From assembly GCA_009778325.1 (NCBI GenBank), contig WRJZ01000046.1, forward strand, positions 1-64,000: a DNA stretch of 64,000 nt, written 5' to 3'. Origin of the DNA: Candidatus Endomicrobium neocapritermitis (GTDB taxonomy: Bacteria > Elusimicrobiota > Endomicrobiia > Endomicrobiales > Endomicrobiaceae). Under the pieces are notes generated by a model that saw nothing but the letters and a program-made list of their open reading frames with translations, did no database searches and had not been told where the DNA came from. Position 1 is the stretch's first letter, and every line of letters begins with the position of its first letter. Positions 34,491 to 53,786 of this stretch are shown in pieces. The translations under genes and the position numbers were made by a program.

Positions 34491-34562
34491 ATGCACGCTC
34501 CTTGTTTATATTTTTGATGTATTATGCGATAAATTCTTTTCGATACCCTCTTACTTTTTATT

Positions 34563-34580: not shown

Positions 34581-34599
34581 ACCTTTTTTATTTTTCGTA

Positions 34600-36003: not shown

Positions 36004-36687
36004 CTAATTAATATTTGATAATTCCGTTATAGCCTTATAATATGCATCTGAAGTTAATGTATGTCCGCCATTTTTAAAAATAAACATTTCTACTATACCT
36101 CCATTTTTCTTAAGTTCTTTTTCCGCAATATATGCTTCCTCAATTGGAATGTATTTGTCATCATCCCCATGAAAAAAATAAAATTTCTTCTCTTTGGCGT
36201 TGCCAATATAGCGCTCAGATCCGGAAAACAGCTTGTTTCCGCTTACTGAAACACAGGCATAAAATGAATCCGGATATCGCAAAAGAAGGTCTATGGCAAA
36301 CAGTCCGCCTAGCGACGTACCTACCGTATAAACTTTATCGACTTCAATGTTGTATTTTGTATTTAATTCCCCTATTGCTTTTTCTATTTTATTATATATA
36401 TTTTCAATATCAGCGTCGTTTTTTATGCCTTTATAATCGATATCAAATCCTATAATAATAAACTTCTTCTTTTCCGCGTTGAATTCCCAGCGTTGAGCTT
36501 CTTCTTTGAAAGACATTTTCGAACTATGAAATACCACAAGTACTTTAGAAGGATTATCCCCTATTGCTTTTGGCAAATAAATAAAATATTTCTCTTCCTG
36601 ATTTTCTATTTTTTCATATGCACAAGCTGTCATACAAAAACTAAAAAAAACTCCTAAAATAAATACTATCTTGATAAAATAATTCAT
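36004..36687 (-). CDS. Secreted alpha/beta-hydrolase esterase, paralog 2
   Basis: A 227-residue paralog of the esterase at 33804-34490 with the same layout: signal peptide, LVVFHSSKM in the oxyanion region (the first copy has LVILHGWGM), nucleophile GTSLGG (Ser125), FHGDDDKY and GGHT. The loss of the HGWG glycine pair here may weaken the oxyanion hole. I use the ATG at 36687 (GAGGAG 8 bases upstream) because an upstream start would put a charged tail before the signal peptide. The gene is divergent from the biosynthetic cluster and shares its 145-base upstream region with that cluster's first promoter. Confidence 0.8.
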   Translation of the reverse strand: MNYFIKIVFILGVFFSFCMTACAYEKIENQEEKYFIYLPKAIGDNPSKVLVVFHSSKMSFKEEAQRWEFNAEKKKFIIIGFDIDYKGIKNDADIENIYNKIEKAIGELNTKYNIEVDKVYTVGTSLGGLFAIDLLLRYPDSFYACVSVSGNKLFSGSERYIGNAKEKKFYFFHGDDDKYIPIEEAYIAEKELKKNGGIVEMFIFKNGGHTLTSDAYYKAITELSNIN

Positions 36688-36742
36688 TCGCAGACTCCTC
36701 TTTGATGTATTATGAGACAAATTCTTTTCAGCTTGATTTTTA

Positions 36743-36779
36743 TTGACTGTTAGTCATATATTATATATATTATAAGTCC
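36743..36779 (+). promoter_or_regulatory. Cluster promoter P1 with paired TWAGTC half-sites
   Basis: -35 TTGACT (36743-36748), 17-base spacer, -10 TATATT (36766-36771). Half-site TTAGTCATAT begins at 36750 inside the spacer and TAAGTCCTAT at 36773 just after the -10, with G to G distance of 23. It reads towards the BtrH-like gene. The same arrangement occurs at 40993 and 62481. Confidence 0.75.
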
Positions 36780-36831
36780 TATTAATATTTTATATAAAAT
36801 TTACGGAAAATGGAAATTTCAATTTATATTT

Positions 36832-37803
36832 ATGAGTAATAATTTAACAACCTACAACCATAATCAAAATTGTTTTTTTGAATCTCTGCAAACAATATTA
36901 AAGAGAAAAATAGGACGCTCTTGGAGTAACTTTATAGTAAACAGACATTGGAATTTTATATATCACATCAAGAATATGGACTATACGACAGTAAATATTT
37001 CATATGGAACATTTGACGATGTATTAAATTCATTAAAGATGCTTGAAAAAATTGAATTCCAAATCGTAAGCTCACAAAAAGAATGCCTAATAGAATATAT
37101 TGAAAAGAATCAGCCAGCTATGGTTTGCGGAGATACATTCTTTCTAAAATTCTTTCCTAAAAGAGTAGGACATGACATACATGTTTTTATAATTGAAAAA
37201 ATTGATAAAGCTCGTCAAAAAGTTTTAATAACCTGTTCAAAACCTTTTAGAGGCTGGATACCGTTAAAAGAATTAGAAATTGCAAGAAATTCAAATATAA
37301 GCGCAACTATGATTCAAAACAAATGGTTTAAACTGATTAATTTCAACGAAAATATCAAGGAAACAAATCTTCGCAAATATATATTTGAAGCAATACAGAT
37401 AAACATAAAATCAATGAATAACAATGATAATAAATACTACGGCATTCAAGGAATGACAAACTTTATAGAAGACTTAACTTATTTTTTTAATAATCTGGAA
37501 AAGAATCAGATTGATCAACTTCTAAGAAATATTTTTAAGTCATCGAAAACTATTGTCGAAGAACGCAAAAGATATTTATGCTTCCTTTATGAAATATCAA
37601 AAACAAAATTATATAAGACAAAAGATTTAATAAATTTATATAAAAAATTGACGTTCTCTTGGGATATATTGAGAAGTTTATGCTTAAAAAAAACTTTAGT
37701 CAATAATATAAGCAATGAAATGATAATAAATAAATTTAATACTTTATTACAAGAAGAAAAAAAAGCATTAAAAATGTTGGATAATATATTTAAATTAGGA
37801 TAA
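36832..37803 (+). CDS. BtrH-like acyltransferase/C39-like protein
   Basis: A 323-residue soluble protein. The N-terminal ~150 residues fit the BtrH_N pattern: Cys14 in HNQNCFFESLQ, an 'LKMLEKIEF...AMVCGD' middle, and GHDIHVFIIE with the partner His. The known member BtrH moves an acyl group from an acyl carrier protein to the aminoglycoside ribostamycin. The C-terminal half is helical (possibly DUF4872-like). It is the first gene after promoter P1, and an acyl carrier protein, a loading ligase and a ketoreductase follow in the same operon. This supports a role in transferring an ACP-bound acyl unit. A peptidase-like function cannot be excluded. Confidence 0.65.
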   Translation: MSNNLTTYNHNQNCFFESLQTILKRKIGRSWSNFIVNRHWNFIYHIKNMDYTTVNISYGTFDDVLNSLKMLEKIEFQIVSSQKECLIEYIEKNQPAMVCGDTFFLKFFPKRVGHDIHVFIIEKIDKARQKVLITCSKPFRGWIPLKELEIARNSNISATMIQNKWFKLINFNENIKETNLRKYIFEAIQINIKSMNNNDNKYYGIQGMTNFIEDLTYFFNNLEKNQIDQLLRNIFKSSKTIVEERKRYLCFLYEISKTKLYKTKDLINLYKKLTFSWDILRSLCLKKTLVNNISNEMIINKFNTLLQEEKKALKMLDNIFKLG

Positions 37804-37810
37804 TAAACTT

Positions 37811-38509
37811 ATGGCTATTAAAAATTTAACTACCGTATTAGATCAATTTGTTTTAGTAGATTTAAGAGAGTATTTTAACAATGATGCATTTTCGCATGAT
37901 TATCTGAAATGTGATGGAAATTTTGATTCAGGCGGCGCAACTTATCCCGCAGAAGAACTACCAAGATCTAATTCAATTATATGCAATAATGGAATACCAT
38001 TTTTCTTTCCTTCTAAAAACGACGGTTTCCTAAATAATATGGCTCTAAATGGACAAACTATTTGCATCCCAAACGATATATATAAATGTATACATATTTT
38101 AGGAGCTGTTGAAGGAAGCGGTGGCGAAGTGTATGAGGAAGAAGTAACAATTTCTTTTGAAAACGGCACATATAAAACGGTAATTTTAAAGTTAAGTAAC
38201 TGGCTGTTACCTGCAAAGTATAACGAAATCCCAGCTTTTTATTGCAGCCACTTGCATTATCCGGATATGGGACAAATTCCTAATGCCAACACTAAAATCC
38301 AAAATATAAAAACATATATCGATGACAGAAACATCAGTTATCAAACGCAATACGATAAACAATCCGATATTGAAAATATTAACAAAAATATTTGGCGTCC
38401 GAGAATCTGGTTGCAAAAAACAACATTTAAATTTAAACAAGAAATAGTCGCTCTAACGTTTATGGAAAACATAAATTTCCATATATTTTCTATGACTCTT
38501 GAAAAATAA
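37811..38509 (+). CDS. Beta-sandwich protein A (glycosidase-accessory-type domain, cytoplasmic)
   Basis: A 232-residue protein consisting of one domain: VDLREYFNNDAFS, CDGNFDSGGATYPAEELP (residues ~35-52), 'NGIPFFFPS', 'GQTICIPNDIYKCIHILGAV', 'LSNWL', and the last strand NFHIFSMTL. This pattern is known to me as an accessory module of secreted glycosidases ('NNDG...DGDFDG.G..Y.AE.LP...HVFA'). Here it stands alone with no signal peptide. A second copy is at 53787-54512 in the opposite operon. It is 7 bases after the BtrH-like gene. The function is unknown; sugar or product binding is a possibility. Confidence 0.65.
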   Translation: MAIKNLTTVLDQFVLVDLREYFNNDAFSHDYLKCDGNFDSGGATYPAEELPRSNSIICNNGIPFFFPSKNDGFLNNMALNGQTICIPNDIYKCIHILGAVEGSGGEVYEEEVTISFENGTYKTVILKLSNWLLPAKYNEIPAFYCSHLHYPDMGQIPNANTKIQNIKTYIDDRNISYQTQYDKQSDIENINKNIWRPRIWLQKTTFKFKQEIVALTFMENINFHIFSMTLEK

Positions 38510-38515
38510 AAACCT

Positions 38516-39979
38516 ATGTTAATAAAAGATATACTACTAAGACAAAAAAGTAATGATAATCTGGCGGTTACTTTCGGCAAAGAAAAATTAACCTATAGAC
38601 AATTATTTGAATTTGTGCAAAAAAATGCTGACAAATTAAAAATATATGCAAGCAATTCGCATAATATAGGATTATTGTTGCCGAACTCCTCAAACTATAT
38701 AATAGGCCTATTTACTATATTATTTTTGGACAAGGCGGCAGTTCCTCTTGAAGCAAGTATAAAAAAATCGGAACTTAAAAACATTATTAATTATTGCGAT
38801 ATAAATTTGATTATTACGGATACCAAGCACAAAAAATTACTTACGGATGTTGAAAATATTAATATATTTGATATTGAAACAAACACATTGGAAATCAACA
38901 GCCAGTCTTGCATTAAATGTGATTTACAAACACATTTTGACGATGTGACTATGCTGATGCACACTTCCGGAAGTTCAGACAAACCAAAAAGAGTAATGCT
39001 TACAAATAGAAATATAATTTCTAATATAGAAGCTAATATTGAAGCTTTGAATATTAAAGAAAATGACAAAACCTTAATATCCTTACCTATGTATTTTTCA
39101 TATTGCAATACAGCTCAATTGCTCAGTCATATGTACGTAGGCGCTCAAATAGTCATTCTGGATACTATCTTTTTACCTCATATATTCTTTTCAATTGTAG
39201 AGAAAGAAAAAATTACAAATTTTATGACAGTTCCTACAATAATAAAAACACTGTTAAACTATTCTAATCAAAAAACTATTCAATCTTTAAAATGGATTTC
39301 TATCGGCGGCGCTCCGATTGACAATGAAACTTTTAAAAAATTAATCGAATCTTTTAAAGATATCGAATTTATAAAAACATACGGTTTAACCGAAGCTTCT
39401 CCGAGAGTATCAACATTGCTTAGTAAAGATTGTCGTACAAAAACAGCTTCAATAGGCAAACCTATGAAAGGAATAGAAGTCAAAATTATTTTAGAAAACG
39501 GAAATGAAGCGAAAGAATATGAAAAAGGCGAGTTATCGCTAAAAGGCGATAATGTAATGAAAGGATACTATAAAAATACGCAGGAAACGGCAAAAACGAT
39601 TAAAGACGGATGGCTGCATACCGGAGACATCGGATATTATGATGAGGAGGGTTTTATATATTTATCAGGAAGAAAGAAGAATATTATAATCTCAAACGGC
39701 ATTAATATTTATCCAGAAGAAATAGAAGACGTATTAATGTCGCACCATGCGGTTGAGCAAGCTTATGTTTACGGCATATTGAACGAAACTTATGGAGAAA
39801 TCCCGGAGGCAAAAATTGTCATAAAAAAAGAAACCGCCATAAGCGATATGGAGCTGTTACAATATTGTAGAGAAAAACTTTCGGATTATAAAATACCGGC
39901 CAAAATAATTTTTGTCGATAAATTACAATATACGAATAATATGAAAATTAAGAGAACGGAGAGTTTAAATGTTAAATAA
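38516..39979 (+). CDS. Acyl/aminoacyl adenylate-forming ligase
   Basis: A 487-residue ANL-superfamily enzyme that activates a carboxylic acid as AMP ester and probably loads it on the ACP encoded next. Core motifs are seen: HTSGSSDKPKR (~147-157, A3), YGLTEASPR (~293, A5), HTGDIGYY (~366, A7), GRKKNIIISNGINIYPEEIE (~383, A8) and the C-terminal catalytic Lys in NNMKIKR (~477). There is no fused carrier or condensation domain. The stop overlaps the ACP start by 11 bases, so the two are coupled. The substrate is not predictable by eye. Confidence 0.85.
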   Translation: MLIKDILLRQKSNDNLAVTFGKEKLTYRQLFEFVQKNADKLKIYASNSHNIGLLLPNSSNYIIGLFTILFLDKAAVPLEASIKKSELKNIINYCDINLIITDTKHKKLLTDVENINIFDIETNTLEINSQSCIKCDLQTHFDDVTMLMHTSGSSDKPKRVMLTNRNIISNIEANIEALNIKENDKTLISLPMYFSYCNTAQLLSHMYVGAQIVILDTIFLPHIFFSIVEKEKITNFMTVPTIIKTLLNYSNQKTIQSLKWISIGGAPIDNETFKKLIESFKDIEFIKTYGLTEASPRVSTLLSKDCRTKTASIGKPMKGIEVKIILENGNEAKEYEKGELSLKGDNVMKGYYKNTQETAKTIKDGWLHTGDIGYYDEEGFIYLSGRKKNIIISNGINIYPEEIEDVLMSHHAVEQAYVYGILNETYGEIPEAKIVIKKETAISDMELLQYCREKLSDYKIPAKIIFVDKLQYTNNMKIKRTESLNVK

Positions 39980-40229
39980 GGATATCAATAATGAGTTGAA
40001 AAAAATAATAGTAAAAAATTCAAGATTAAAAACCTCAGTGGCAAATATATCAGATAACTCAGATCTAATTAACGATTTTGGATATGATTCCGTATCGCTT
40101 ATAGAACTTATAGTAAACATAGAGCAAACTTTTAATATAACGTTTAATTACGATATGCTTTCCATAGATATCATTTCCAACTTCAAAAATTTATGCGATT
40201 GTATAAAAACAACATTAAAAAATTCGTAG
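39969..40229 (+). CDS. Free-standing acyl carrier protein
   Basis: An 86-residue acidic helical protein with GYDSVSLIEL; Ser41 is the expected phosphopantetheine attachment site. It is coupled to the ligase upstream and sits 9 bases before the ketoreductase. In this setting it is more likely a dedicated carrier of the cluster than the fatty-acid ACP. No ketosynthase and no phosphopantetheinyl transferase are in the window. Confidence 0.88.
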   Translation: MLNKDINNELKKIIVKNSRLKTSVANISDNSDLINDFGYDSVSLIELIVNIEQTFNITFNYDMLSIDIISNFKNLCDCIKTTLKNS

Positions 40230-40238
40230 GAGTTCGTT

Positions 40239-40964
40239 ATGAATATTTCTGTTAAAGGAAAAACAATAGTAATCACAGGAGCAAGCAGAGGAATAGGAAA
40301 ATTTTTGGCTTATAAGTTTGCGAAAGAGCAAGCAAATGTCATAGTAAATTTCAAAAATTCAACAGATGCCGCAAATAATTTTATAAAAGAATTGAACTCA
40401 TTTAATAAAAATTGCATAGCAATACAGGCAGACGTTTCCGATCAAACCGATGTTAAAAAACTTAGAGATAAAGTTATCAAACGATTCGGCAGCATAGACA
40501 CTCTAATTAATAATGCCGGAGTATCAACAGCCAATCCAATCCCCATCATGAAAATAGAGGAATGGGAAGAAGTTATAGATACGAATTTAAAAAGCGTTTT
40601 TTTAACAAGTCGTATATTTGGTATTGAGATGATAAAAAAGCAAAGAGGTAAAATTATAAATATAAGTTCTTTACTTGGGCAAACAGGCAAAGAAAGCCTT
40701 TCTAACTATTCCGCTTCTAAAGCCGGAGTTATAGGTTTTACAAAATCAATGGCTAAAGAAATGGCAAAATTCAATATATGCGTAAATGCAATATGTCCCG
40801 GATTTATTGCGACAGATTTAAACAAATGCACTAAAGAAATGAAATCAAGTAAAGAAAATATTCAAAAAATGGAAGAACTTGCAAATTTTATTATCTATTT
40901 GTCTTCTGACTATTGCAACCATATAAATGGACAAATATTTAACGTAGATTCAAGAATAACATGA
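40239..40964 (+). CDS. Short-chain dehydrogenase/3-oxoacyl-ACP reductase-like
   Basis: A 241-residue SDR enzyme close to FabG. The NAD(P)-binding motif TGASRGIG (~12-19), NNAG (~90), and the catalytic Ser143-Tyr157-Lys161 set (ISS, then YSASK) are intact. FabG is usually a tetramer reducing beta-ketoacyl-ACP; here it should reduce (or oxidise) a group on the ACP-bound intermediate. A GGAG site precedes it. It is the last gene of the first operon; the next 130 bases hold promoter P2. Confidence 0.88.
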   Translation: MNISVKGKTIVITGASRGIGKFLAYKFAKEQANVIVNFKNSTDAANNFIKELNSFNKNCIAIQADVSDQTDVKKLRDKVIKRFGSIDTLINNAGVSTANPIPIMKIEEWEEVIDTNLKSVFLTSRIFGIEMIKKQRGKIINISSLLGQTGKESLSNYSASKAGVIGFTKSMAKEMAKFNICVNAICPGFIATDLNKCTKEMKSSKENIQKMEELANFIIYLSSDYCNHINGQIFNVDSRIT

Positions 40965-40992
40965 CAATCTTCATTTTTTTTGCAAATTAATA

Positions 40993-41030
40993 TTGATTAT
41001 TAGTCCTATTTTGTATATATTATTAGTCAT
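40993..41030 (+). promoter_or_regulatory. Cluster promoter P2 with paired TWAGTC half-sites
   Basis: -35 TTGATT (40993-40998), 17-base spacer, -10 TATATT (41016-41021). Half-sites TTAGTCCTAT (from 41000) and TTAGTCATAT (from 41023) are 23 bases apart, as in P1. It drives the operon beginning with the B12-type radical SAM gene. Confidence 0.75.
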
Positions 41031-41106
41031 ATAATGTATTTTTGTAATTGAATGCTTATTAGCTTTTTTTGATTTTTATTACTTTAATTTAATAAGGATG
41101 TGTATC

Positions 41107-42405
41107 ATGTCAGACATTTTAATAGTATGGCCAGATGAACAATATGTGATGAAAACCCATACAAAGATTCCAAAAAGATGGGCATATTTAATTGAAATAG
41201 TTTCTTATCTAGAAAAATTCACGCAATATTCTTATGATGTTGTAGACTGCTTGGATCCAAAGTTTAGCATAGGCGAAGTTATGGGATTAGTAGCAAAAAA
41301 TAAATATAAGTTAGTTATTTGTGTTAGTAGAATTGAGAATATAGTTTCAGTTTCATTTCTCTCAGATAAAATAAAAAAGATTTTGCCAAATACCAATATC
41401 CTATTATATGGTGACATATGCGCATATGCCCCCAATTATTTCAAAAATAATCTTAATATTGATGCCATTGTCACTTGCGGAGATTGGGAGATATCAATAT
41501 CTGAATATGCAGATTATATTTTTGGCAAAAAACAGCTGGATGAAGTTACAGGGATAACTTATAAACAATCCAGCATCTGGCATTCACATAAAAAAGGCAA
41601 TTACGTTTCTGACTGGGAACTTCCAAATACGCAAAGCAAATATTTATTTGACTTAAATACTTATAATACTATAACAAATAATGAAATAACATTATCTGTT
41701 GGCAGAGGCTGTCCATTTGATTGTAAATTCTGCACGGCAGTTATTACGTTTGGATTAAAAGACAGAAGAAAAAAACCTGAAGAAATCGTTGCGTATATGA
41801 AAGAAAACAGCAAGAAATTCAAATCTTTCAAACTTTTTTCCCCTACATTAACCTATAACACGGAATGGGTTAAAACTTTTTGTTCTATGTTGATAAAAGA
41901 AAATTTAAATATTCCATGGTGCGGAACAACAAGAATAGACACACTAAATGACGATGAAATGAAAAAGCTTATTGTAAAAAGCGGATGTTATAAGCTTGCT
42001 ATAGGCTTTGAAACATTAGATTTGGACTCCTCTCATGTCTTAAGCAAGCACAAAGAGGCTAATTTTTTAGAAAAAGCTGAATCCACGGTTAAGTTTTTTA
42101 CTTCAAACAAGGTAGAAATTAATTCTCTTATGATGCTTGGCATAAAAGGGCAAACAAGAGAAAATATTTGTTTATCATTTTCAAAACTTCAAGAATGGGG
42201 AGCAAACATAAGAGCTTCGGCATACTCTCCTAGAGAATACATAAGAGAATGGGATGCCGACTCAACAAAAAACTTAAGTTTTGATGAGATCATGGCTTTC
42301 GATAAAATGACATATTTAAATAATGAAATACCGGGTGTATCTTATTCACAATTTCTTGACCTTGTCTACAACACAGAAAATTATAAAAAAATACTAAATT
42401 ACTAA
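41107..42405 (+). CDS. B12-binding-type radical SAM enzyme
   Basis: A 432-residue enzyme. The N-terminal ~140 residues have the Rossmann-like layout of a cobalamin-binding domain (ILIVWPDEQ, then LLYGDICAY) but the usual DxHxxG box is not obvious, so B12 binding is uncertain. The radical SAM core has Cys202, Cys206 and Cys209 in GCPFDCKFC. Such proteins are often methyltransferases or ring-forming enzymes. I use the ATG at 41107 because AAGGA is correctly spaced from it; the ATG at 41098 would touch that site. First gene of the second cluster operon. Confidence 0.8.
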   Translation: MSDILIVWPDEQYVMKTHTKIPKRWAYLIEIVSYLEKFTQYSYDVVDCLDPKFSIGEVMGLVAKNKYKLVICVSRIENIVSVSFLSDKIKKILPNTNILLYGDICAYAPNYFKNNLNIDAIVTCGDWEISISEYADYIFGKKQLDEVTGITYKQSSIWHSHKKGNYVSDWELPNTQSKYLFDLNTYNTITNNEITLSVGRGCPFDCKFCTAVITFGLKDRRKKPEEIVAYMKENSKKFKSFKLFSPTLTYNTEWVKTFCSMLIKENLNIPWCGTTRIDTLNDDEMKKLIVKSGCYKLAIGFETLDLDSSHVLSKHKEANFLEKAESTVKFFTSNKVEINSLMMLGIKGQTRENICLSFSKLQEWGANIRASAYSPREYIREWDADSTKNLSFDEIMAFDKMTYLNNEIPGVSYSQFLDLVYNTENYKKILNY

Positions 42406-42419
42406 GTTATTGAACCCAA

Positions 42420-43025
42420 ATGAAACATATTTTTTTTGATATAGGCAATGTATTAATTAAATTTAAACTCATGTCCTTTCTGAAAGCTTTTAATAATTCA
42501 GAGCTTGATGAAAGTTTTTTAAATTGCCTTGATATGGCCTTTTTAGGGGAAGCACCAGAAGACAATATTATTATGTCCATGAACAAATTGGCAGGAAAGG
42601 ACATATTTGCCTTTTATGAAGAGACTAAATTCAAGAACTCTTGGATTCAAATAAATAATGAACTATTTGAAATAATACGCAATTATTCCGATAAATTTAA
42701 ATATGGGATTATATCTGACTTATGGTGTGTTCCCTATAAGATAATAACCGCAGAGTACCCATCTTTTTTTTCTCATTTTCCACAAAATAACATTTTTATT
42801 TCTTATAAAACAGGGTTTTCAAAAAGAGAACATGGCGCACAAGTTTTTGAAAACGTATTAAATACTTTAGATATTGCTCCAGGAAATATATTATATATTG
42901 ATGATGACTTTGAAAATGTAAAAAATGCCCAATTGGTTAATATGAACGCTATATGTTATAATATTGATGACAAAGCATCTAATAAACAATTATTACAAAA
43001 AATAGCTTTTTTTTATAACAGTTAA
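42420..43025 (+). CDS. HAD-family phosphatase
   Basis: A 201-residue haloacid-dehalogenase-type hydrolase, subfamily IA. The nucleophile Asp7 is in FFDIGNVL, a variant with Gly at the usual second Asp as in YihX-type sugar phosphatases. Motif II is in ISDLW, the Lys in SYKTGFSKRE, and motif IV in LYIDDDFENV. It probably removes phosphate from a cluster intermediate. It follows the radical SAM gene by 14 bases. Confidence 0.85.
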   Translation: MKHIFFDIGNVLIKFKLMSFLKAFNNSELDESFLNCLDMAFLGEAPEDNIIMSMNKLAGKDIFAFYEETKFKNSWIQINNELFEIIRNYSDKFKYGIISDLWCVPYKIITAEYPSFFSHFPQNNIFISYKTGFSKREHGAQVFENVLNTLDIAPGNILYIDDDFENVKNAQLVNMNAICYNIDDKASNKQLLQKIAFFYNS

Positions 43026-43075
43026 TTTGTATATTTTCATATATAAAATAATTTTAAATTCATAGGAAACAAAAA

Positions 43076-44776
43076 ATGAAACATTTAATCACTAGCGCTC
43101 TACCATATATCAATGGAATTAAGCATCTAGGAAATCTTGTCGGCTCTATGCTTCCTGCAGATGTTTATGCGCGTTATTTAAGGTCTCGCGATAATGAGGT
43201 TTTGTTCATATGCGCAACAGATGAGCACGGCGCTGCAACAGAAATAGCAGCTGCTAAAGCCAACATTCCCGTTGAGGAATTTTGTCGAATTCAACATGAA
43301 CTTCAAAAGAACGTTGGAGAACGTTTTTGGCTATCATTTGATTATTTTGGTAGAAGTTCAAGCGAAAACAACACACTGTTAACTCAATATATCGCAAAAA
43401 AACTTGAAGAAAACGGCTACATTGCAGAACGCACAATAAAACAATTTTATTCCAATACCGATAAAATGTTTCTGCCGGACAGATATGTGGAAGGAACTTG
43501 CCCGCATTGCGGATATTTGAATGCTAGAGGAGACCAATGCGAAAACTGCACCCGTGTTCTTGATCCTGAAGAACTTATCAATCCCCGCTCAGCAATATCT
43601 TCCAGTACAGATATTGAACTCAAAGAAACAAAACATTTATTTTTATTGCAATCGAAACTTGCAGATCAATTGGAAACATGGCTGCACAAACAAGACTCAT
43701 GGCCCAAATTAGTGCGTTCAATTGCAGACAAATGGCTTAAAGAAGGCTTGCTGGACAGAGCAATAACAAGAGATCTTAAATGGGGAGTACCCATAAATAA
43801 ACCTGGTTTTGAAAACAAAGTTTTCTACGTGTGGTTTGACGCACCGATAGCCTATATTTCCACAACAAAGGATTGGGCAGAACACAATGGACAAGATTGG
43901 CATCAATGGTGGGACTCCAAGGAACAAAAACAAGGGAATGTAAGATATACTCAGTTTATGGCAAAAGATAATATTCCTTTTCATACAATCACATTTCCGT
44001 CTACAATAATAGGGTCAGGCGAAGAATTTTTACTTCCTGATTATATAAAAGGCGTAAATTGGCTTAACTATTACGGCGGCAAATTTTCAACAAGCCAAAA
44101 ACGCGGAATATTTATGGATCAAGCAATAAATTTATATCCTTCAGATTACTGGCGCTATTATTTGATGAGCAACATACCTGAAACCGATGATGTAAGCTTT
44201 TCATGGGAATTATTCGCTTCTTGTGTAAACAAAGATTTATGCGGAGTTTTAGGAAACTTTTTTAACCGTTCATTTAAAATGTTATCTCAATATTTTGGTA
44301 CTGTTATTCCTGAAGGAGGAACTGAATCGGAACATGAAGAAAAATTAGTGCATGGCTTATGTGATTTTAAAAAAGAATATGAACACCATTTAGATAACTT
44401 GGAATTTAGAAAAGCTGCAATTGCATTGCGCAATATATGGAAGCTGGCAAATGAATATTGTGACGCAAGGGCACCGTGGAAAGCGTCCAAGGAAGGCCGT
44501 ATGGAAGACGTTGCAATTTGTATGCGTTACCTTGTTAATATGCAAAGAATTATCAGCATATTAAGCGCCCCATTTATACCGGAATTCGCGAAAATAACAG
44601 CAGACAACTTAAGTTTATTAGAAAATGAAAGAGCATGGACTACAGATGATATCTCTGTAGAATTAAAAAGTCTTGTCCCTGGAAGAGAAATAAAAGATCC
44701 AGGGATACTGCTTTTTAACCGCATTCTGCCCGAAGATGTAGAAAAGTACAAACAAAAATTTGGTTCCCAAGATTAA
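43076..44776 (+). CDS. metG: Methionyl-tRNA synthetase inside the biosynthetic operon
   Basis: A 566-residue class I synthetase that charges tRNA-Met. Catalytic HLGN (17-20) and a zinc knuckle (CPHC...CENC, ~141-157) are present. The second ATP motif reads KFSTS (336-340) in place of KMSKS, a known variant class. The anticodon-binding helical domain is present; the C-terminal tRNA-binding (EMAP-like) domain is absent. The gene sits between the HAD phosphatase and an aminotransferase fusion with the ribosome start of the next gene only 5 bases after its stop. Whether it is the cell's only MetRS cannot be told. Self-resistance or supply of Met-tRNA to the pathway are possible. Confidence 0.9.
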   Translation: MKHLITSALPYINGIKHLGNLVGSMLPADVYARYLRSRDNEVLFICATDEHGAATEIAAAKANIPVEEFCRIQHELQKNVGERFWLSFDYFGRSSSENNTLLTQYIAKKLEENGYIAERTIKQFYSNTDKMFLPDRYVEGTCPHCGYLNARGDQCENCTRVLDPEELINPRSAISSSTDIELKETKHLFLLQSKLADQLETWLHKQDSWPKLVRSIADKWLKEGLLDRAITRDLKWGVPINKPGFENKVFYVWFDAPIAYISTTKDWAEHNGQDWHQWWDSKEQKQGNVRYTQFMAKDNIPFHTITFPSTIIGSGEEFLLPDYIKGVNWLNYYGGKFSTSQKRGIFMDQAINLYPSDYWRYYLMSNIPETDDVSFSWELFASCVNKDLCGVLGNFFNRSFKMLSQYFGTVIPEGGTESEHEEKLVHGLCDFKKEYEHHLDNLEFRKAAIALRNIWKLANEYCDARAPWKASKEGRMEDVAICMRYLVNMQRIISILSAPFIPEFAKITADNLSLLENERAWTTDDISVELKSLVPGREIKDPGILLFNRILPEDVEKYKQKFGSQD

Positions 44777-44780
44777 ACTT

Positions 44781-46592
44781 ATGCAAAAGACAGAAAAACT
44801 TATTTTGGATTTAAAGGAAAGGGTAATTAAGGCTTTTGAAACAAAAGACCCTTATCTTGTATTGTACGGTTCCGCAGTACATGGAAAAATTACCAGTGAC
44901 TTTGACATATGTTTGTTTTTGCACACATATTCAAAAGAAGACGTTCAATTGCTGAAAAAAATTATTGTTGATTTTCATAAAGACAACAGTTTAAAGCTTG
45001 AATATGAAGTGCCTTACGAAAATAAAATCATTTATTCTTTTAAAGATATACTGAATGTCATAGATTTTTCCCCTTTTGATATAGTTGGAGATAACATTGT
45101 TATAAAAAAAATAGAAAAATCACAAGATTTCTTAAAATCTCTACATATTAAACTTAGATTGCTTTTCTTCGTTTTAACCTCAGATTCTTTGCTTATTCTA
45201 GGGAACAATGATATCTTTAATATGTATAAATCTTTGGCATTTAAAACTCTTGTAAAAACAATTTTCGCATATACTTATAATTTTCCTATAACGCAAGAAA
45301 CTTTTTTACAGTATCTGCTTAAAGATCCTTATACGTCTAGAAGAGCCGAAATGTATATCGGATATAAAAACCGACTTCCGCTAATTAAATATTTAAAATC
45401 GTCCATCAAAACGACATTTGTTGAATTATATAATGAAAAACATATGCTTAAATTACGCAATAACGCATATAAATTTACAGAAGACAGTTTAGAAGACTTT
45501 AAGTTTAATATGTATAATAAACCATCGAATACAAATATTAGAAAAAACTTGCCTTCTTCATATAAAAAATTGCAAACTTTTGATTTTGCAGAAAACGCCA
45601 ACCCGCTAGGGCCGTCAAGCATAATGAGTGACAGCATAAAGTTTTTTTCAAAATATGCAAATATTTATCCTGATTACAAAAACATTGAAATCAACAGACA
45701 TTTATCTGATTTTATAATGTCACCTAATAAAAACACTGTAGTATGTAATGGCTCTATGGAAGCTATTTTTGCTATTCCGCAATTATTAAAAACCAAGAAA
45801 GCCGGCGTAATCGTACCAACTTTCTGGGCGTTCGAATTTATAATTAATAAACTAAATATACCGTTAAAAAAAAGCTTTTTGAAAATCGATAACAACCTAA
45901 AATATAATATTCAAGATATTGATGAATTAGCTAAAGAATGCGATTTAATATATATATGTAATCCTAATAATCCTACCTCTTCATTCATACATCCCCAAAA
46001 ACTGATGAAAATAATAAAAAAATATAAAGACTGTCATTTTATGATTGACGAGTCACACATTCTATTAAAAAACAATCACATGAAGTTAAGCTTATTAAAT
46101 CATATTAAAAATTTCAGCAATGTAAAGAATGTTACGCTTATTTACTGCTTGTCAAAGATGTTTTCTGTCGCAGGGTGCCGAATAGGAGCTATGGTATCAA
46201 ATAAAAATACAGTCAAGCTTTTTAAAGACTGGCAAATACCGTATTCATTAAATACATTAGCTCAAGCTTTTTTTCCTTTGGCGCTAAAAGACAGAAATTT
46301 TGTTAATTCAACAAGAACAGAATTACATGATTTACGTAAATCTTTAATAAAAATGCTACAAACTATTAAAGAATTAAGAGTTATTCCAAGTAATACAAAT
46401 TTCATATTATGTGAAATAAAAAATGGATCCTCTGCCGTTAATTTGATTTCTAATTTGGAAAAAGAAAAATTTTATATTCGTGAATTAACTACACATTACA
46501 AAGATTTTCCTGGTGAATGGATAAGAATATCCGTAAATAATACTTATCTGAATACAAAATTAGTAGAGGCTATCAAATGCCACTTAAAATAG
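44781..46592 (+). CDS. Nucleotidyltransferase-PLP aminotransferase fusion
   Basis: A 603-residue two-domain protein. The N-terminal ~100 residues have the nucleotidyltransferase signature LYGSAVHGK and DFD (Ser31, Asp40, Asp42); a helical linker follows. From ~260 comes a fold-type I aminotransferase of HisC/CobD type: ENANPLGPS, NPNNPTS, DESH and the PLP Lys459 in LSKMFSVAGCRIG, ending RISV. CobD-type members decarboxylate O-phosphothreonine and HisC transaminates histidinol phosphate. The fusion suggests that an amine or amino-acid phosphate is made and then linked to a nucleotide. The ATG at 44781 is used; an upstream TTG is unlikely. Confidence 0.8.
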   Translation: MQKTEKLILDLKERVIKAFETKDPYLVLYGSAVHGKITSDFDICLFLHTYSKEDVQLLKKIIVDFHKDNSLKLEYEVPYENKIIYSFKDILNVIDFSPFDIVGDNIVIKKIEKSQDFLKSLHIKLRLLFFVLTSDSLLILGNNDIFNMYKSLAFKTLVKTIFAYTYNFPITQETFLQYLLKDPYTSRRAEMYIGYKNRLPLIKYLKSSIKTTFVELYNEKHMLKLRNNAYKFTEDSLEDFKFNMYNKPSNTNIRKNLPSSYKKLQTFDFAENANPLGPSSIMSDSIKFFSKYANIYPDYKNIEINRHLSDFIMSPNKNTVVCNGSMEAIFAIPQLLKTKKAGVIVPTFWAFEFIINKLNIPLKKSFLKIDNNLKYNIQDIDELAKECDLIYICNPNNPTSSFIHPQKLMKIIKKYKDCHFMIDESHILLKNNHMKLSLLNHIKNFSNVKNVTLIYCLSKMFSVAGCRIGAMVSNKNTVKLFKDWQIPYSLNTLAQAFFPLALKDRNFVNSTRTELHDLRKSLIKMLQTIKELRVIPSNTNFILCEIKNGSSAVNLISNLEKEKFYIRELTTHYKDFPGEWIRISVNNTYLNTKLVEAIKCHLK

Positions 46593-47293
46593 AGAATCTC
46601 GCCATGTCATTTAAGGAAAAATATAATAATTCAACCTATCAAATCAATCAGAGCGCAGGAATAATTTTATTTGATGATAACTTTTGTTATCTTTTATTAA
46701 ATAAAAAAAGAAAATGGGAAAAGAAAGATGCCTTTTCGTATGAAATAAAATATTCAGCAATAGGTGGAGCGATAGAAAATAATGAAACCCCTATACAATG
46801 TTTAGCAAGAGAGATAAAAGAAGAAATAACTTCAACCATTTCTGATATAGACATCAAATCCTTTAGGATAACATATATTATAGACAAGGATTCAAATATT
46901 TTAGAAAAATCATTTCCTGATGCCATTCCTGCTCCGCTATGCATTTTTGAAAGAGAGCTTCCTTTAAGAAAAGACGTTATATTTAAAAAAAATAATTGGG
47001 AAAAATCATGTTTACAATTGTTTCTATACATTGGGTATATATCCAAGCCTTTTAGAATCAATGAAGATGAGATTCCGGCGATAATAAAAGTTCCAAAAAC
47101 AGATTTAATTAATTTTATAAATAAAAGACAATCTTTTGTTCAAAATAGCTTTTTAAATAAATTTATATTAGACATTAATGCAAATTTTGTTAATAAATAT
47201 GGTGAAATACCGGAAAAGATTATTCTTTCCCCTCAGTTTTCTTTTACAGCTTTTAAAATTTTATTTGATAATAAAAAAATATTTGCTTTCTAA
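46577..47293 (+). CDS. NUDIX hydrolase
   Basis: A 238-residue protein with a clear NUDIX box at residues ~64-85 (GAIENNETPIQCLAREIKEE fits Gx5Ex7REUxEE). The last ~100 residues are an extra helical domain of unknown type. NUDIX enzymes cleave nucleoside-diphosphate-X compounds. Its start overlaps the end of the nucleotidyltransferase-aminotransferase gene by 16 bases, so the pair may make and cut an NDP-linked intermediate (inference). Confidence 0.85.
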   Translation: MPLKIENLAMSFKEKYNNSTYQINQSAGIILFDDNFCYLLLNKKRKWEKKDAFSYEIKYSAIGGAIENNETPIQCLAREIKEEITSTISDIDIKSFRITYIIDKDSNILEKSFPDAIPAPLCIFERELPLRKDVIFKKNNWEKSCLQLFLYIGYISKPFRINEDEIPAIIKVPKTDLINFINKRQSFVQNSFLNKFILDINANFVNKYGEIPEKIILSPQFSFTAFKILFDNKKIFAF

Positions 47294-47366
47294 CCATTAG
47301 AATGTATAATAACGATATAAGCGATACTAAATCTATAATGGACATTAAAAAAAGAGGAGAAAATTT

Positions 47367-47699
47367 ATGAAAATAGGGATTATACGCTGTATGCAAACAG
47401 AAGATTATTGTCCAGGGACAGCAGATTTTAGGGCAATAAAAAACAAAACGGGTATTTTTGAAAACATTAAAGACGATATAGAAATTATTGGCATGATAAA
47501 TTGCGGAGGATGTCCAGGAAAAAAAATAACAATGCGGGCAATGAAAATGATAGAAAAAGGAGCTGATACTATAGCAATGGCAACTTGTATAAACAAAGGA
47601 TCATCCAACAATTTTGCTTGTCCATTTTCCGAGAAGATTATGAACCATTTAACTGAAAGACTTGCTAAAGATATAAAAATTTTACCGTATACACATTAA
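47367..47699 (+). CDS. CGGC-domain protein
   Basis: A 110-residue protein with Cys46-Gly-Gly-Cys49 in INCGGCPGKK, the mark of the CGGC domain family, plus Cys at ~9, ~15, 75 and 83 regions (IIRCMQTEDYCPGTAD, MATCI). It probably binds a metal or an Fe-S cluster, or acts as a redox partner; the family function is unknown. AGAGGAG precedes the ATG. It is 6 bases before the large radical SAM gene and may serve it as electron or cluster donor (inference). Confidence 0.8.
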   Translation: MKIGIIRCMQTEDYCPGTADFRAIKNKTGIFENIKDDIEIIGMINCGGCPGKKITMRAMKMIEKGADTIAMATCINKGSSNNFACPFSEKIMNHLTERLAKDIKILPYTH

Positions 47700-47705
47700 T
47701 AGCAT

Positions 47706-49679
47706 ATGAAAAATAAAAACATCGACGTTTGTCTTATCAACATGCCTTATGCTGAAGTCACTGAGCCCTCTCTAGCTCTTGGGCTTTTAAAGGTTGCGCT
47801 TTCAGATGAAAACATATCTACAAAAATATTATATTCAAATATCAGTTTTGCTGAAAAAATAGGCCTAAAAAATTATCAACTTATTGCGTATGTAGGCAAA
47901 GGTGACGATATGCTAATATGGGATTGGACTTTTTCTCAAGTTGCCTTTCCCAACATGAAAAGAAATGACTTGTCATATCTGCGAAAAATTTATAGTTCCA
48001 TAAAATTTTATGAACATTATCCAGGAGAATTAAAAACTTTTATAAGAAGTTGTTTGGAAGTAAGAAAAGCCACTAAAAACTTTATAGAAGAAACCGCTAA
48101 AGCAGCTATTGCAACAGGCGCTAAAATAATTGCCTGCACTTCTACATTGAGACAACATGTTTCTTCGATTGCATTGTTAAGAAAAGTCAAAGAACTTGAC
48201 CCGTCAAAAATAACCATGATAGGTGGTGCGAATTGTTCAGCAGATATGGGAAAAGAAACTCACCGAAGTTTTGCTTGGATAGATTTTCTTGTATCTGGAG
48301 AAGGAGAAGAAATAATTGGAAAATTATGTAAAGATATTCTTGCTTACGGAACGAATCTTGACATAGAAAACCTTCCTTTTGGCGTATTTGGGCCTAAGCA
48401 TAGAGAACAAAACCATTATGATAAAATTGGAAGCAAATATTACGCAACAGTTAAAAATATTGATAACTCTCCTATTCCTGATTTTACAGATTATTTCGAC
48501 GCGTTGAATATATCGTCAATAAAGGAATCTGTTGTTCCTGGCATTATACTTTTAACATCAAAAGGATGTTGGTGGGGACAAAAATATCAATGCTCTTTCT
48601 GTGGATTAAACGGCGCCGATATCTGTTACAGAGTAAAGTCTCCTGAACGGGCATTAAAAGAAATAAAAACGTTAGAAATCCAGTACAAAACAAACCGACT
48701 TTTAATGGCAGATAATATCCTTGATATGGGATATTTTAACAGTCTGCTTCCAGACTTGGCATCTGACGGAAAAAAAAGATGTATTTTTTATGAAACTAAA
48801 TCAAATCTTAGCAAACAACAAGTAGAAATGTTGAAAAAATCCGGAGTTGAATGGATAGAACCTGGCATTGAAAGCCTCCACTCTGATCCCCTCAAGTTTA
48901 TGAATAAAGGCGTTAAAGCATGGCAAAACATACAATTATTAAAATGGGCCAGACAATACGGAGTGCGCACTTATTGGAATATCATGTGGAATTTCCCTGG
49001 AGAAGATGATAAATGGTATTTAGAGATGTCCAAATTTGTTCCCATGCTTGAACACCTTCATCCGCCAGCTAGACTTGCTGAATTGTTATATCATAGATAT
49101 AGTGATTACTATAACAACCCAGAAAAATATGACATCACACTAATACCCCACCCTGCATTACAATATATTTACCCTTTATCGCAGGAACAGTTAAAAAGTC
49201 TTACGTATACATTTTTTGTTGAAAAAAATAGTATTTTTGAAAAAAAAGAAAATTTAGCTAATGAAAAAGTTGGGGTATCTGCATTAAGAAAAGCTATTAG
49301 AGATTGGCAATCAGCATTTTGGATTCAAACAAAACCAATATTAAATATGGTAGATAACGGCAATTCAATAGATATTATTGATACTAGAAAATCTTCTTGT
49401 AAAAAGAATTTTTCTATCAAAGGCTTATCTCGCTATATTTATTTATTATGTGATAAAGCGCCTTTAAAGGAATCTCTATCTTCATTACTAAAAGAACAAT
49501 TTCATTTTGAAGCTAAACCAAAAGATGTTAACGAATGCATTGATATGCTTAAAGAAAACAATCTCATCATTGAAATTGATGAACGAATAATATCTTTGGC
49601 TGTACAAGGAGAAGCCATGGAATTACCTACTTGGGACGAAACTCCATTTGGTATAGTAAAAGGCATTTCTCATGTCTGA
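47706..49679 (+). CDS. B12-radical SAM protein of the RiPP-maturation type (rSAM_ocin_1-like)
   Basis: A 657-residue enzyme. The N-terminal ~230 residues are a cobalamin-binding-like domain (INMPYAEVTEPSLALGLLK start). The radical SAM motif is CX7CX2C: Cys288 in GCWWG, Cys296 and Cys299 in CSFCGLNG. Then come DNILDM, FYETKSNL, EPGIESL, MNKGVKAWQNIQLLKW and WNIMWNFPGE. These blocks match the family I know as radical SAM ribosomal-peptide maturation protein 1 (TIGR03975). The C-terminus is winged-helix-like. Members are linked with bacteriocin-type precursors, yet none is seen here. It ends the second operon. Confidence 0.85.
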   Translation: MKNKNIDVCLINMPYAEVTEPSLALGLLKVALSDENISTKILYSNISFAEKIGLKNYQLIAYVGKGDDMLIWDWTFSQVAFPNMKRNDLSYLRKIYSSIKFYEHYPGELKTFIRSCLEVRKATKNFIEETAKAAIATGAKIIACTSTLRQHVSSIALLRKVKELDPSKITMIGGANCSADMGKETHRSFAWIDFLVSGEGEEIIGKLCKDILAYGTNLDIENLPFGVFGPKHREQNHYDKIGSKYYATVKNIDNSPIPDFTDYFDALNISSIKESVVPGIILLTSKGCWWGQKYQCSFCGLNGADICYRVKSPERALKEIKTLEIQYKTNRLLMADNILDMGYFNSLLPDLASDGKKRCIFYETKSNLSKQQVEMLKKSGVEWIEPGIESLHSDPLKFMNKGVKAWQNIQLLKWARQYGVRTYWNIMWNFPGEDDKWYLEMSKFVPMLEHLHPPARLAELLYHRYSDYYNNPEKYDITLIPHPALQYIYPLSQEQLKSLTYTFFVEKNSIFEKKENLANEKVGVSALRKAIRDWQSAFWIQTKPILNMVDNGNSIDIIDTRKSSCKKNFSIKGLSRYIYLLCDKAPLKESLSSLLKEQFHFEAKPKDVNECIDMLKENNLIIEIDERIISLAVQGEAMELPTWDETPFGIVKGISHV

Positions 49680-49753
49680 CTAAAACTGACAATAAATAAA
49701 TTGCATAGACGGGGAAATACATATAACTAACGAGAAAGACTAAAATATCAGAA

Positions 49754-51286
49754 TCAACATTTATACATTCCCACATTTTCTAAATGATCCCCTACTTTTT
49801 TTATGTGTTTTATCATTTCTAGTACATCAGATTTCTTTAATAGGTGATTTCCACTCATATATCGCATAGGGTATAAAATATTTATATTTTTGTTAAATAT
49901 TTCCCCTAAGTCATAAAATGGAAATGTATGCAGATAATATTTATTATTTTTAAATAAATATTCTTGTATTTTTTTGTTAATAGCATTAACTTTTTCAACC
50001 TCTTTAGCTGAAATATCTTTGTTATTATTGATTTCATTTTTAATTTTTGCAGACACATACATAAACATCACTGAATTTATATCGGTATTTTTATTCAAAA
50101 CAATAAAGTTATCTCTCTCTTGTAATTTTTTACAAAGAAATTTAGCCAAATCATAACGCTTGTCAACAATTTCTCCAATTTTATTCTTCCCAAAATATTT
50201 TATAGAAGCCCACAATTTCAAACTATCAAAAGACTTACTTCCTATCATTGGGGTAATCTGCCCAAAAGCAAAATCTTCTTTCATAATAAGATCTGAATTA
50301 CTAGCTATTAATTTAAAATCTTTAGGGTTTTTAAAAAGTAATGAACTTAACACATACGGCATAAATAATACTTTATGAGGGTCCAACGTAATACTGTCAG
50401 CCCTGCTAATTCCATGTATTTTATATTTCAGCTTATCACTGAAAGCAAGCTGAAATCCGTGACATGCATCCACATGGAACCATAAATTTTCTTTTTGTGC
50501 TATATCACTTAAAGCTTCAATATTGTCTACTGACATCGCCCTGCTATCTCCAGCATAGCAAACTAAAGATATTATTTTATAGTCACATCTATAATCTCGT
50601 ATTTTGCGTTTTAACTTTACCAAATCGATTTTATATTCATCCGTTATATCAGCCTCAATAATATTTTTTTCTCCTAAGCCTATCCATGACAATCCACATC
50701 TTATACTATAATGAGAAATATATTTAGGCAGAATTACTTTTACTTTGGAAGTATCGAAAGTAATTCCATTTTCTCTGACCATAGGGAAAGCTTTATTTCT
50801 TGCAGCCATCATAGCAATGGTGTTAGATATCGTTCCTCCGAGAGTTACAATTCCGCCAATATCAAAAATATTTTCAGGGTCATAATTGACTTCATATCCT
50901 AAAATTTCTCTAAGCCAGTTTATAATTGACATTTCAACAAAACTTGCAACAGGAGAACAGTGTTCGGCATTTATCATATTTTGGTTAAGGAGTGGAACTA
51001 ACAACGCTGCTGCTATTGAAGAAACAGAATTGCCTGAATCAGGAAAAGCACAAAATTTTTTTGACGCAAAGTTTGTAGAAAATTTAACAATTTTATTATT
51101 TAATTCATTGTACAGTTTTTTTAAAGACATAGAAGTATTGGGTATGGGTTCTAATAATAAACCCTTGAAATATTTGGGATGCATTACTTTTGTAATGGAA
51201 TCCATGGTTTTAAAATCCACTCCCATATCTACTATTTCATGCAGATATTTTTTTATTTTTTTACCATTTGTATTATTAATAAACAT
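49754..51286 (-). CDS. PLP-dependent group II decarboxylase
   Basis: A 510-residue decarboxylase of the aromatic-amino-acid/glutamate/tyrosine type. The PLP-binding Lys305 is in DPHK, and HVDACHGFQLAFS gives the PLP-stacking His/Asp. It would turn an amino acid into its amine. Its start overlaps the stop of the PaaK-like ligase by 11 bases, so translation of the two is coupled. It is the last gene of the minus operon, converging with the second plus operon; the 74-base gap shows no hairpin. The substrate is unknown. Confidence 0.85.
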   Translation of the reverse strand: MFINNTNGKKIKKYLHEIVDMGVDFKTMDSITKVMHPKYFKGLLLEPIPNTSMSLKKLYNELNNKIVKFSTNFASKKFCAFPDSGNSVSSIAAALLVPLLNQNMINAEHCSPVASFVEMSIINWLREILGYEVNYDPENIFDIGGIVTLGGTISNTIAMMAARNKAFPMVRENGITFDTSKVKVILPKYISHYSIRCGLSWIGLGEKNIIEADITDEYKIDLVKLKRKIRDYRCDYKIISLVCYAGDSRAMSVDNIEALSDIAQKENLWFHVDACHGFQLAFSDKLKYKIHGISRADSITLDPHKVLFMPYVLSSLLFKNPKDFKLIASNSDLIMKEDFAFGQITPMIGSKSFDSLKLWASIKYFGKNKIGEIVDKRYDLAKFLCKKLQERDNFIVLNKNTDINSVMFMYVSAKIKNEINNNKDISAKEVEKVNAINKKIQEYLFKNNKYYLHTFPFYDLGEIFNKNINILYPMRYMSGNHLLKKSDVLEMIKHIKKVGDHLENVGMYKC

Positions 51287-52625
51287 TTTCTTCCTTAATT
51301 TTATCCTTTATCTTGCAATAAAAAAATTTAAATTTACCGCTTATCGGATCATTTGGAATTTGTTCTTTAGAAATATTAATTTTAATCCCTATTTCGTATT
51401 CTAAAACTCTTTCTAAATAATTTTTTAAAAATACTTTCACTTCTTCCATAATAACATAATTAGGAATTTCAGAACTTCTAAACTTAAATTGAAATTCATC
51501 AACTTTTTCTTGAATAATTTGATATTGGCTAAACTCAAATATATTCTTTAATTGTAAGGCAAGCATTGCATCGGTAGTTATCCAATGCTCATAATAATTA
51601 TTCTTACCTACTACCAAATCATTAAGTCTGTACTGCTTCAAATTTATAACTGGAGTTGTATTATCACAATCACAAGAATTTTCTTCCCAGTCGGCACAAT
51701 CGCCAATCTTATATCTAAGCAATGGCATTTGTTTATAGCACATTGTTGATATAACAACCTCTTTAACATTCTTATCAGTTTCAAGAAGCTCAACAAAAAC
51801 GTTCTTTGTAAAAACATGCATTTTACCTTTTGAACATGTTGAAGCAATAAATTGAACTTCATTTGTAGCATAAATATTAGTCGGTATTATATTGAAAGCT
51901 TCTTTAATTATCTGCGATTGCCAATCAAACATATATTCGCTTTGGCATTCTATATATCTTATATCCAAAATATTCTTTTTGGCATTTTTTATAATATAGT
52001 CTGAAAAATAAGATAAAATTGAAGGAGCAGCTATTATCCATTTTACTTTTTCCTTTAACATAAATTTAAATAATTTTTCAAAAACCATATCGTTATATTT
52101 GTATAAGTAATATATATTTCCATATTGATTAATCTGTTCAAAATCATTTTTACAACCAATACTTTCTATTCTAGTGATTGGATTAACAGGCCATATCCAA
52201 ATATATGGCATATTAAGAATATCGTCATTTTTTTTCTTTCTATGCATGTTTAACAATAAAAATGCATTATTGCTATCTCTATGATGTTTAGCTATAGTTA
52301 ATGGTTCCCCCGTGGATCCACTTGACATAACTAAATCGATGTTGTGTTTTTTAAAATATGCTCTCGGAAATTTTTTTTTAAGCGATTCTTCTAAATTAAA
52401 ACCTGCCGCCAAAATGTCCTCATTAATAAAATCAGAGATATTCTTCCTATAATCTTGTTTAGTAGTAATTGGAATTTTTTTAAAATCTTCATAATTTTTA
52501 ATATTTGCTATATCAATATTGCATTTTCTATATAATGATCTATAATAAGGTACATTAAGAGATGCTGCTAGCATTTGTTTAATATTTATTATGTTTTTAT
52601 TAAATTCTTTTTCTTCTATTTTCAT
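51276..52625 (-). CDS. PaaK-like adenylate-forming enzyme
   Basis: A 449-residue protein with the phenylacetate-CoA-ligase layout: the ATP loop SSGSTGEP at ~99-106, IECQSEYMF, YATNEVQF, and LLRYKIGD near 310. It activates an acid as acyl-AMP for CoA, carrier or amine transfer. The ATG at 52625 is used; the upstream TTG at 52643 lacks a ribosome site. It is coupled with the decarboxylase. A gap of 116 bases to the radical SAM gene contains TATAAT and may hold an extra promoter. Confidence 0.82.
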   Translation of the reverse strand: MKIEEKEFNKNIINIKQMLAASLNVPYYRSLYRKCNIDIANIKNYEDFKKIPITTKQDYRKNISDFINEDILAAGFNLEESLKKKFPRAYFKKHNIDLVMSSGSTGEPLTIAKHHRDSNNAFLLLNMHRKKKNDDILNMPYIWIWPVNPITRIESIGCKNDFEQINQYGNIYYLYKYNDMVFEKLFKFMLKEKVKWIIAAPSILSYFSDYIIKNAKKNILDIRYIECQSEYMFDWQSQIIKEAFNIIPTNIYATNEVQFIASTCSKGKMHVFTKNVFVELLETDKNVKEVVISTMCYKQMPLLRYKIGDCADWEENSCDCDNTTPVINLKQYRLNDLVVGKNNYYEHWITTDAMLALQLKNIFEFSQYQIIQEKVDEFQFKFRSSEIPNYVIMEEVKVFLKNYLERVLEYEIGIKINISKEQIPNDPISGKFKFFYCKIKDKIKEENVY

Positions 52626-52741
52626 GATAATACCAACTAACAAAAAATTATAGTCTGACAGTACTTCAACAAAATTCTACAAGCATTTCCATCTAACAAC
52701 AATACAAAAAGTATAAGCTTTTCAAAAGATTTTATTTAACT

Positions 52742-53782: not shown

Positions 53783-53786
53783 AACT

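Follow-up and report, generated by a model that had tools for sequence, protein, structure and literature searches.

A methionyl-tRNA synthetase (MetRS) gene embedded among biosynthetic genes raises the question of what such an enzyme does there: whether it serves translation in general, protects the producer from the product of the pathway, or takes part in making that product. We addressed this question for a MetRS gene of Candidatus Endomicrobium neocapritermitis, in a 64,000-nucleotide stretch of contig WRJZ01000046.1 (hereafter, the window). The preliminary description of this locus had suggested that the product might inhibit MetRS or that Met-tRNA might feed the pathway and, should this be the only MetRS, that the cluster had been placed around an essential gene.

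A complete MetRS of foreign type

The gene under study is the following:

43076..44776, + strand: accessory type-2 methionyl-tRNA synthetase, 566 aa (PF09334, PF19303, TIGR00398)

Pfam searches detected the class I catalytic domain (tRNA-synt_1g, PF09334, E=5e-144) and the MetRS anticodon domain (Anticodon_3, PF19303, E=8e-32), the score against TIGR00398 was above the cut-off, and neither a C-terminal tRNA-binding domain nor a C-terminal extension was found in the Pfam scan, in agreement with the preliminary description. All catalytic residues that were checked are present, and the methionine pocket is complete (A12, L13, Y15, D52, W253, Y260, H301), as are the residues that contact the CAU anticodon (N391, R395, W461); the second knuckle contains four zinc-binding Cys residues, with Pro at the position of residue 257 of the E. 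coli enzyme. The motif KFSTS, singled out earlier because it stands in place of KMSKS, is indeed there, but both this KMSKS-type motif and the HIGH-type motif HLGN are the norm in the clade; the interpretation of KFSTS as a degenerate motif was rejected, given that it is found clade-wide and carries no special meaning. The window MetRS departs from only 2 of 108 highly conserved columns, which argues that it is under constraint, and the enzyme is apparently intact. No T-box or other RNA regulation of the gene was detected at Rfam gathering scores.

The sole unusual feature near the active site is in the loop that adjoins the methionine pocket, which is altered at positions 53-55: DEHG-AAT replaces DEHG-TPA (T56A), next to the methionine-binding aspartate. 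Ala at the first position of the altered loop occurs in none of the 77 other MetRS sequences. Among 78 sequences, T56A in the window MetRS and L13F in the MetRS of L046 (see below) are unique residues near the methionine site, compared with any unique residue at the positions around this site in 3 of 76 other MetRS (Fisher p about 0.003), a small, post hoc result that involves few residues at positions picked after the fact.

A second metG, 29% identical to the window MetRS, is present on another contig of the same genome (G000:C27:29065-30573), in a locus that is syntenic with the metG region of two relatives (G004 and G014). By the definitions of PMC8165550, this housekeeping MetRS is of type 1: it lacks the distal Cys set, contains KMSKT, and carries Leu in place of Pro257; the residues of its active site are intact. 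In 40 relatives, ranging from genus to class, only MetRS matches of the ~29% level were found, and none of the 40 encodes the window type. The window copy thus lacks the hallmarks of a host housekeeping gene, namely, single copy, vertical inheritance and occurrence in relatives, and instead is an extra copy within a cluster, the other copy in this genome, of a different subtype, being located elsewhere.

The best matches to the window MetRS, 53-57% identical, come from Sneathiella, Kofleriaceae, Acidobacteria, Eremiobacteria, Nocardia, Streptomyces and others. This type is the sole MetRS in Sneathiella and several metagenome-assembled genomes (MAGs), and an extra copy in Nocardia amamiensis, Streptomyces flavochromogenes, a Micromonosporaceae MAG and the L046 genome. 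In the MetRS tree, the window copy belongs to a supported set that includes actinomycete extra copies and some sole copies, with an end branch (0.98) longer than those of the other members. The window and L046 copies are on different branches; the starred branches keep L046 outside the set of the window and require that the accessory label was gained or lost at least twice, so that separate recruitment of MetRS appears likely. Both checks proposed in the preliminary description, the search for another metG and the tree, yielded results in support of a cluster-dedicated duplicate: another metG exists, and the window copy groups with foreign rather than host sequences. By these sequence comparisons, the window MetRS is a second MetRS of foreign type, not the housekeeping copy, and was horizontally acquired.

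The biosynthetic island

The gene cluster that contains the MetRS is located within a 34-kb island between core genes and comprises two convergent operons:

27948..62408: low-GC island that contains the cluster (GC 0.31; flank and most other contigs sampled, 0.40-0.41)
36832..37803, + strand: BtrH/DarH-like acyltransferase (DUF4872 at cut-off; BtrH_N and DarH weak)
37811..38509, + strand: protein with no family match, 42% identical to its paralog at 53787..54512
38516..39979, + strand: AMP-forming acyl ligase (PF00501, E=2.9e-63)
39969..40229, + strand: acyl carrier protein (PF00550, E=2.6e-8)
40239..40964, + strand: short-chain dehydrogenase, ketoacyl reductase-like (PF00106, E=1.7e-61)
41098..42405, + strand: B12-type radical SAM protein (PF04055; B12-radical SAM models)
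42420..43025, + strand: HAD-like phosphatase, upstream of MetRS (weak HAD/PRK09456 match; PF00702, E=0.04)
44760..46592, + strand: fusion of a nucleotidyltransferase (NTase) and a HisC/CobD-like PLP enzyme (PF00155, CobD/HisC models, alignment with the L046 NTase)
46577..47293, + strand: NUDIX hydrolase (PF00293, E=1.1e-6)
47367..47699, + strand: CGGC-domain protein (PF08821, E=7e-30)
47706..49679, + strand: B12-radical SAM C-methyltransferase of the TIGR03975 type (E=4e-191, above cut-off)
49754..51286, - strand: group II PLP-dependent decarboxylase (PF00282, E=1.7e-45), of the family common to the L046 and actinomycete modules
51276..52643, - strand: PaaK-like ligase (from reading the sequence; no meaningful Pfam match)
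52742..53782, - strand: radical SAM/SPASM protein (PF04055, PF13186)
53787..54512, - strand: paralog of the protein at 37811..38509
54527..55720, - strand: DegT-like sugar aminotransferase (named from reading the translation)
55777..58335, - strand: glycosyltransferases (named from reading the translation)
58338..62408, - strand: exporter genes, TolC-like, HlyD-like and ABC transporter (named from reading the translations)

Core genes on the same contig have a GC content of 0.39-0.43. The island genes are low in GC3, and that of the MetRS gene (0.30) is close to the value for the island, compared with 0.37-0.41 in core genes. A contaminant contig is unlikely: the window flank matches contigs C27 and C20 in GC and in tetramer profile (0.96-0.97), and carries core genes. 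The MetRS gene is part of a same-strand run, from 36832 to 49679, with operonic spacing, and the two operons are tied together by the 42%-identical paralogs, one in each. Elsewhere in the island, two similar, apparently duplicated esterase-like genes on the minus strand (33804-34496 and 36004-36720) flank a purM-like gene (34600-35769).

The immediate neighbors of the MetRS gene had been described as a phosphatase and an aminotransferase fusion, on the same strand and with the same spacing. The strand and the tight spacing were confirmed, the likely start codon of the fusion gene being the ATG at 44781, 4 nt past the MetRS stop, and the phosphatase upstream was retained, with a weak HAD match; the supposed aminotransferase fusion, in contrast, consists of an NTase of the polymerase-beta type (about 44781-45570) and a C-terminal CobD/HisC-like domain. 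In the metal site of the NTase, GS-x(n)-DxD plus a third carboxylate, the G-S, D, D and E residues are invariant or conserved (alignments A2 and A5). The domain scores below the Pfam cut-offs and reaches no curated family cut-off: the match to MntA_antitoxin has E=5e-6 and 26 bits, against a cut-off of 60, and there are weak matches to PADLOC candidate families. Searches of PDB sequences and with the NTase family profile likewise yielded only weak matches, to MNT and ANT(3'') chains, and the predicted structure (pLDDT 45) was too poor for a fold search. The decarboxylase is 38% identical to that of L046 (E=5e-113), and its PLP lysine lies within an invariant DPHK motif.

A recurring decarboxylase-NTase-synthetase module

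The MetRS search led to L046, an alphaproteobacterial MAG contig (a stretch of this record is masked), in which a decarboxylase (2099-3664), an NTase (3684-4463) and a MetRS (from 4471) form an operon. Between this NTase and the N-terminal part of the window fusion, the identity is about 27-30%, and the MetRS is tightly coupled with the NTase gene in both loci. The L046 genome also encodes a separate housekeeping MetRS.

When the NTase alone was used as the query against plasmids and 395 actinomycete genomes, a decarboxylase, a methyltransferase, an NTase and an arginyl-tRNA synthetase (ArgRS) were found in a row at five actinomycete loci (L119, from Nocardia farcinica, and L148-L151). The presence of ArgRS is an independent result because the synthetase was not part of the query. 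The module ArgRS resemble one another at a level of about 60% and are distinct from the more distant ArgRS that G445, G431, G402 and G595 also encode. The modules of L149 and L151 look closely related; in L151 (9250-14718), the NTase is interrupted by an apparent transposase gene, and beyond the decarboxylase there is another copy that looks identical. Streptomyces plasmids L118 and L120 encode the decarboxylase and the NTase without a synthetase. On a plasmid of Streptomyces sp. NBC_00853 (L152:14992-18913), a decarboxylase of this same family is followed by a HisC-like enzyme, 21% identical to the C-terminal domain of the window fusion, and an MFS transporter, with no NTase or synthetase annotated nearby.

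These searches covered a sample of genomes. Beyond the genome of L046 itself, no further copy of the module turned up among the 33 genomes searched from its order. Samples from the phylum of L005 (296 genomes) and from the order of Nocardia amamiensis (399 genomes), neither of which included a positive control, likewise gave none. Within the class of the window (96 genomes), the only strong match was in the genome of the window itself. Our literature search for biosynthetic clusters that combine MetRS or ArgRS with a decarboxylase or NTase returned nothing specific, and no paper on the module.

Thus, across the genomes compared, the synthetase is swapped between Met and Arg while the decarboxylase and NTase stay; the recurrence of these partners is new here. 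That the synthetase changes and its partners do not points to a functional link, and the recurring module supports one of the self-resistance or Met-tRNA supply kind.

MetRS genes on plasmids and in other genomes

The MetRS clade of the window is also represented on plasmids of Streptomyces, Acaryochloris, Phyllobacterium and Phaeobacter, where the decarboxylase and NTase families are not nearby; in particular, no close homolog of either window protein was found near the copies in L112-L115. On a plasmid of Streptomyces sp. NBC_01724 (L112:15001-31710), a possible biosynthetic set, comprising P450, ScbR-type regulator, ATP-grasp, histidine decarboxylase and MFS transporter genes, is found at a distance of about 4-15 kb from the accessory MetRS. 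A Comamonas endophytica plasmid (L116:12001-13176) contains a fragment of this MetRS type, apparently a pseudogene, under two hypothetical genes. A 120 kb plasmid of E. coli (L159, NZ_CP062914.1 73223-86827) carries apbC-metG beside P1-like-looking genes (DNA polymerase III theta, S24 peptidase, type I R-M), and other E. coli and Shigella plasmids, of 106-113 kb, gave matches at the same 31% level.

In Nocardia amamiensis (L009:8770-12401), metK is directly upstream of the accessory metG, which is followed by a gene for a B3/4-domain protein, and in the Micromonosporaceae MAG (L007:6743-11692), metK is also upstream, with a B12-radical SAM gene between the two. The pairing of metK and metG, which encode two methionine-binding enzymes, would fit protection from a methionine antimetabolite.

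Role of the synthetase

The best supported reading is that the window MetRS is dedicated to the pathway, a role predicted here from gene content and homology. Within this reading, we consider it an even call that the MetRS works with the PLP decarboxylase and the NTase as a copy that confers self-resistance to an amino-acid or aminoacyl-adenylate mimic. Such a mimic, the product of the pathway, would inhibit the cell's own synthetase, MetRS in this case and ArgRS in the actinomycete versions, and the extra synthetase, which belongs to another subtype and has an altered surrounding of the methionine site, would keep the translation of the producer going as a substitute target. Two points favor self-resistance: in the Met and Arg versions alike, a normal housekeeping synthetase is accompanied by one of a foreign subtype, and inhibitors of type-1 enzymes (MetRS1) are known to be less effective, or ineffective, against type-2 MetRS (PMC8165550, PMC7916415). 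The exporter genes that adjoin the cluster also count in its favor, whereas the location of the window decarboxylase on the opposite strand, in the neighboring operon, and the synthetase-free loci L118, L120 and L152 count against it.

The main rival to self-resistance is aminoacyl donation, whereby the MetRS is a biosynthetic enzyme that provides Met-tRNA or Met-AMP, or itself passes methionine to an acceptor, in the manner of SbzA and AcmF (PMC12945691). This is a serious but distinctly less probable alternative. The exchange of Met for Arg with a constant decarboxylase and NTase would be expected if the amino acid were a building block, and the very tight coupling of the MetRS and NTase genes in the window and L046 points the same way; the minimal three-gene operon of L046 could equally use Met-tRNA or Met-AMP as a substrate. 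Against this, no aminoacyl-tRNA-dependent transferase of a known family was found among the cluster genes scanned, Met-tRNA is already made by the housekeeping MetRS, so that a foreign subtype is unneeded for supply, and all the canonical MetRS residues checked, including the anticodon contacts, are kept. Self-resistance and donation need not exclude each other, since SbzA does both jobs.

A somewhat more tentative proposal is an undescribed small system in which the decarboxylase and NTase would make an amine or nucleotide mimic of an aminoacyl-adenylate, with the matching MetRS or ArgRS providing self-protection or acting as the amino-acid donor. That the product could be such a mimic is speculation based on the weak resemblance of the NTase to ANT(3''), which places AMP onto hydroxyl groups.

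It is improbable that the window gene is a mobile accessory MetRS2, conferring general protection from drugs or antimetabolites, that came to reside in the island by chance with no specific link to its neighbors. The plasmid copies that lack the partner families fit such a scenario, as does the S. pneumoniae MetRS2 precedent, as cited in PMC7916415, but the same partner families adjoin the extra MetRS in L046 and the extra ArgRS in actinomycetes, the GC3 of the window gene is close to that of the island, and its spacing is operonic. Still less credible is a conflict or defence device, with an NTase related to MNT antitoxins, in place of a biosynthetic module: the weak NTase matches to MntA and PADLOC candidates, with similarly weak ones to ANT(3'') adenylyltransferases, speak for it, but the best conserved partner is a full group II decarboxylase, and the surroundings in the window are an acyl ligase, an ACP, an SDR, radical SAM proteins and exporter genes. 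Finally, an ordinary essential MetRS with the cluster assembled around it, as considered in the preliminary description, can be dismissed almost entirely: the window MetRS looks catalytically complete, but the idea is refuted by the separate, syntenic and vertically inherited metG with intact active-site residues, and the window type is missing from all 40 relatives.

Taken together, the data suggest that the product of the cluster either acts on tRNA-charging enzymes or is assembled by means of them. Extra synthetases in biosynthetic clusters have pointed to classes of inhibitors, for example, those of IleRS, and MetRS, for which synthetic inhibitors are being developed, is pursued as an antibacterial target. 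To our knowledge, neither MetRS nor ArgRS has a validated natural inhibitor; if the mimic reading is true, this would be the first known natural product family directed at these two enzymes, and would also show repeated recruitment of synthetase duplicates into specialized metabolism. With a module of three or four genes in which the decarboxylase and NTase are kept and the synthetase is swapped, and with the L046 operon being short, the functional question is directly testable.

Comparison with known systems

The closest relatives of the window MetRS in architecture are the type-2 enzymes of Rhodobacteraceae and Sneathiella (HLGN, KFSTS, a four-Cys zinc site, no C-terminal domain), to which it is similar in length and motifs, up to 57% identical, and the same in the catalytic and anticodon residues checked. 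Unlike these, it is a second copy, located in a biosynthetic island, and has DEHG-AAT rather than DEHG-TPA.

The MetRS2 of S. pneumoniae was horizontally acquired and confers resistance to MetRS1 inhibitors (Gentry 2003, as cited in PMC7916415). It resembles the window copy in being a type-2 enzyme beside a type-1 housekeeping one, whereas the window copy is in a biosynthetic cluster, and resistance is its candidate role.

SbzA, an extra IleRS-like enzyme in the SB-203208 cluster, is described as serving both self-resistance and aminoacyl donation, and AcmF, an AlaRS-like enzyme of ascamycin biosynthesis, is an aminoacyl donor (PMC12945691). As with SbzA, an extra full-length synthetase is present inside a biosynthetic cluster, but in the window it is a MetRS rather than an IleRS, its partners are a decarboxylase, an NTase and a CobD/HisC-like enzyme, and its function is predicted from sequence. 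As with AcmF, whose product is aminoacyl nucleotide-like, a synthetase-like gene is part of a pathway; AcmF handles alanine, whereas the window MetRS is canonical and complete, and known nucleoside-sulfamate genes were not recognized in the window.
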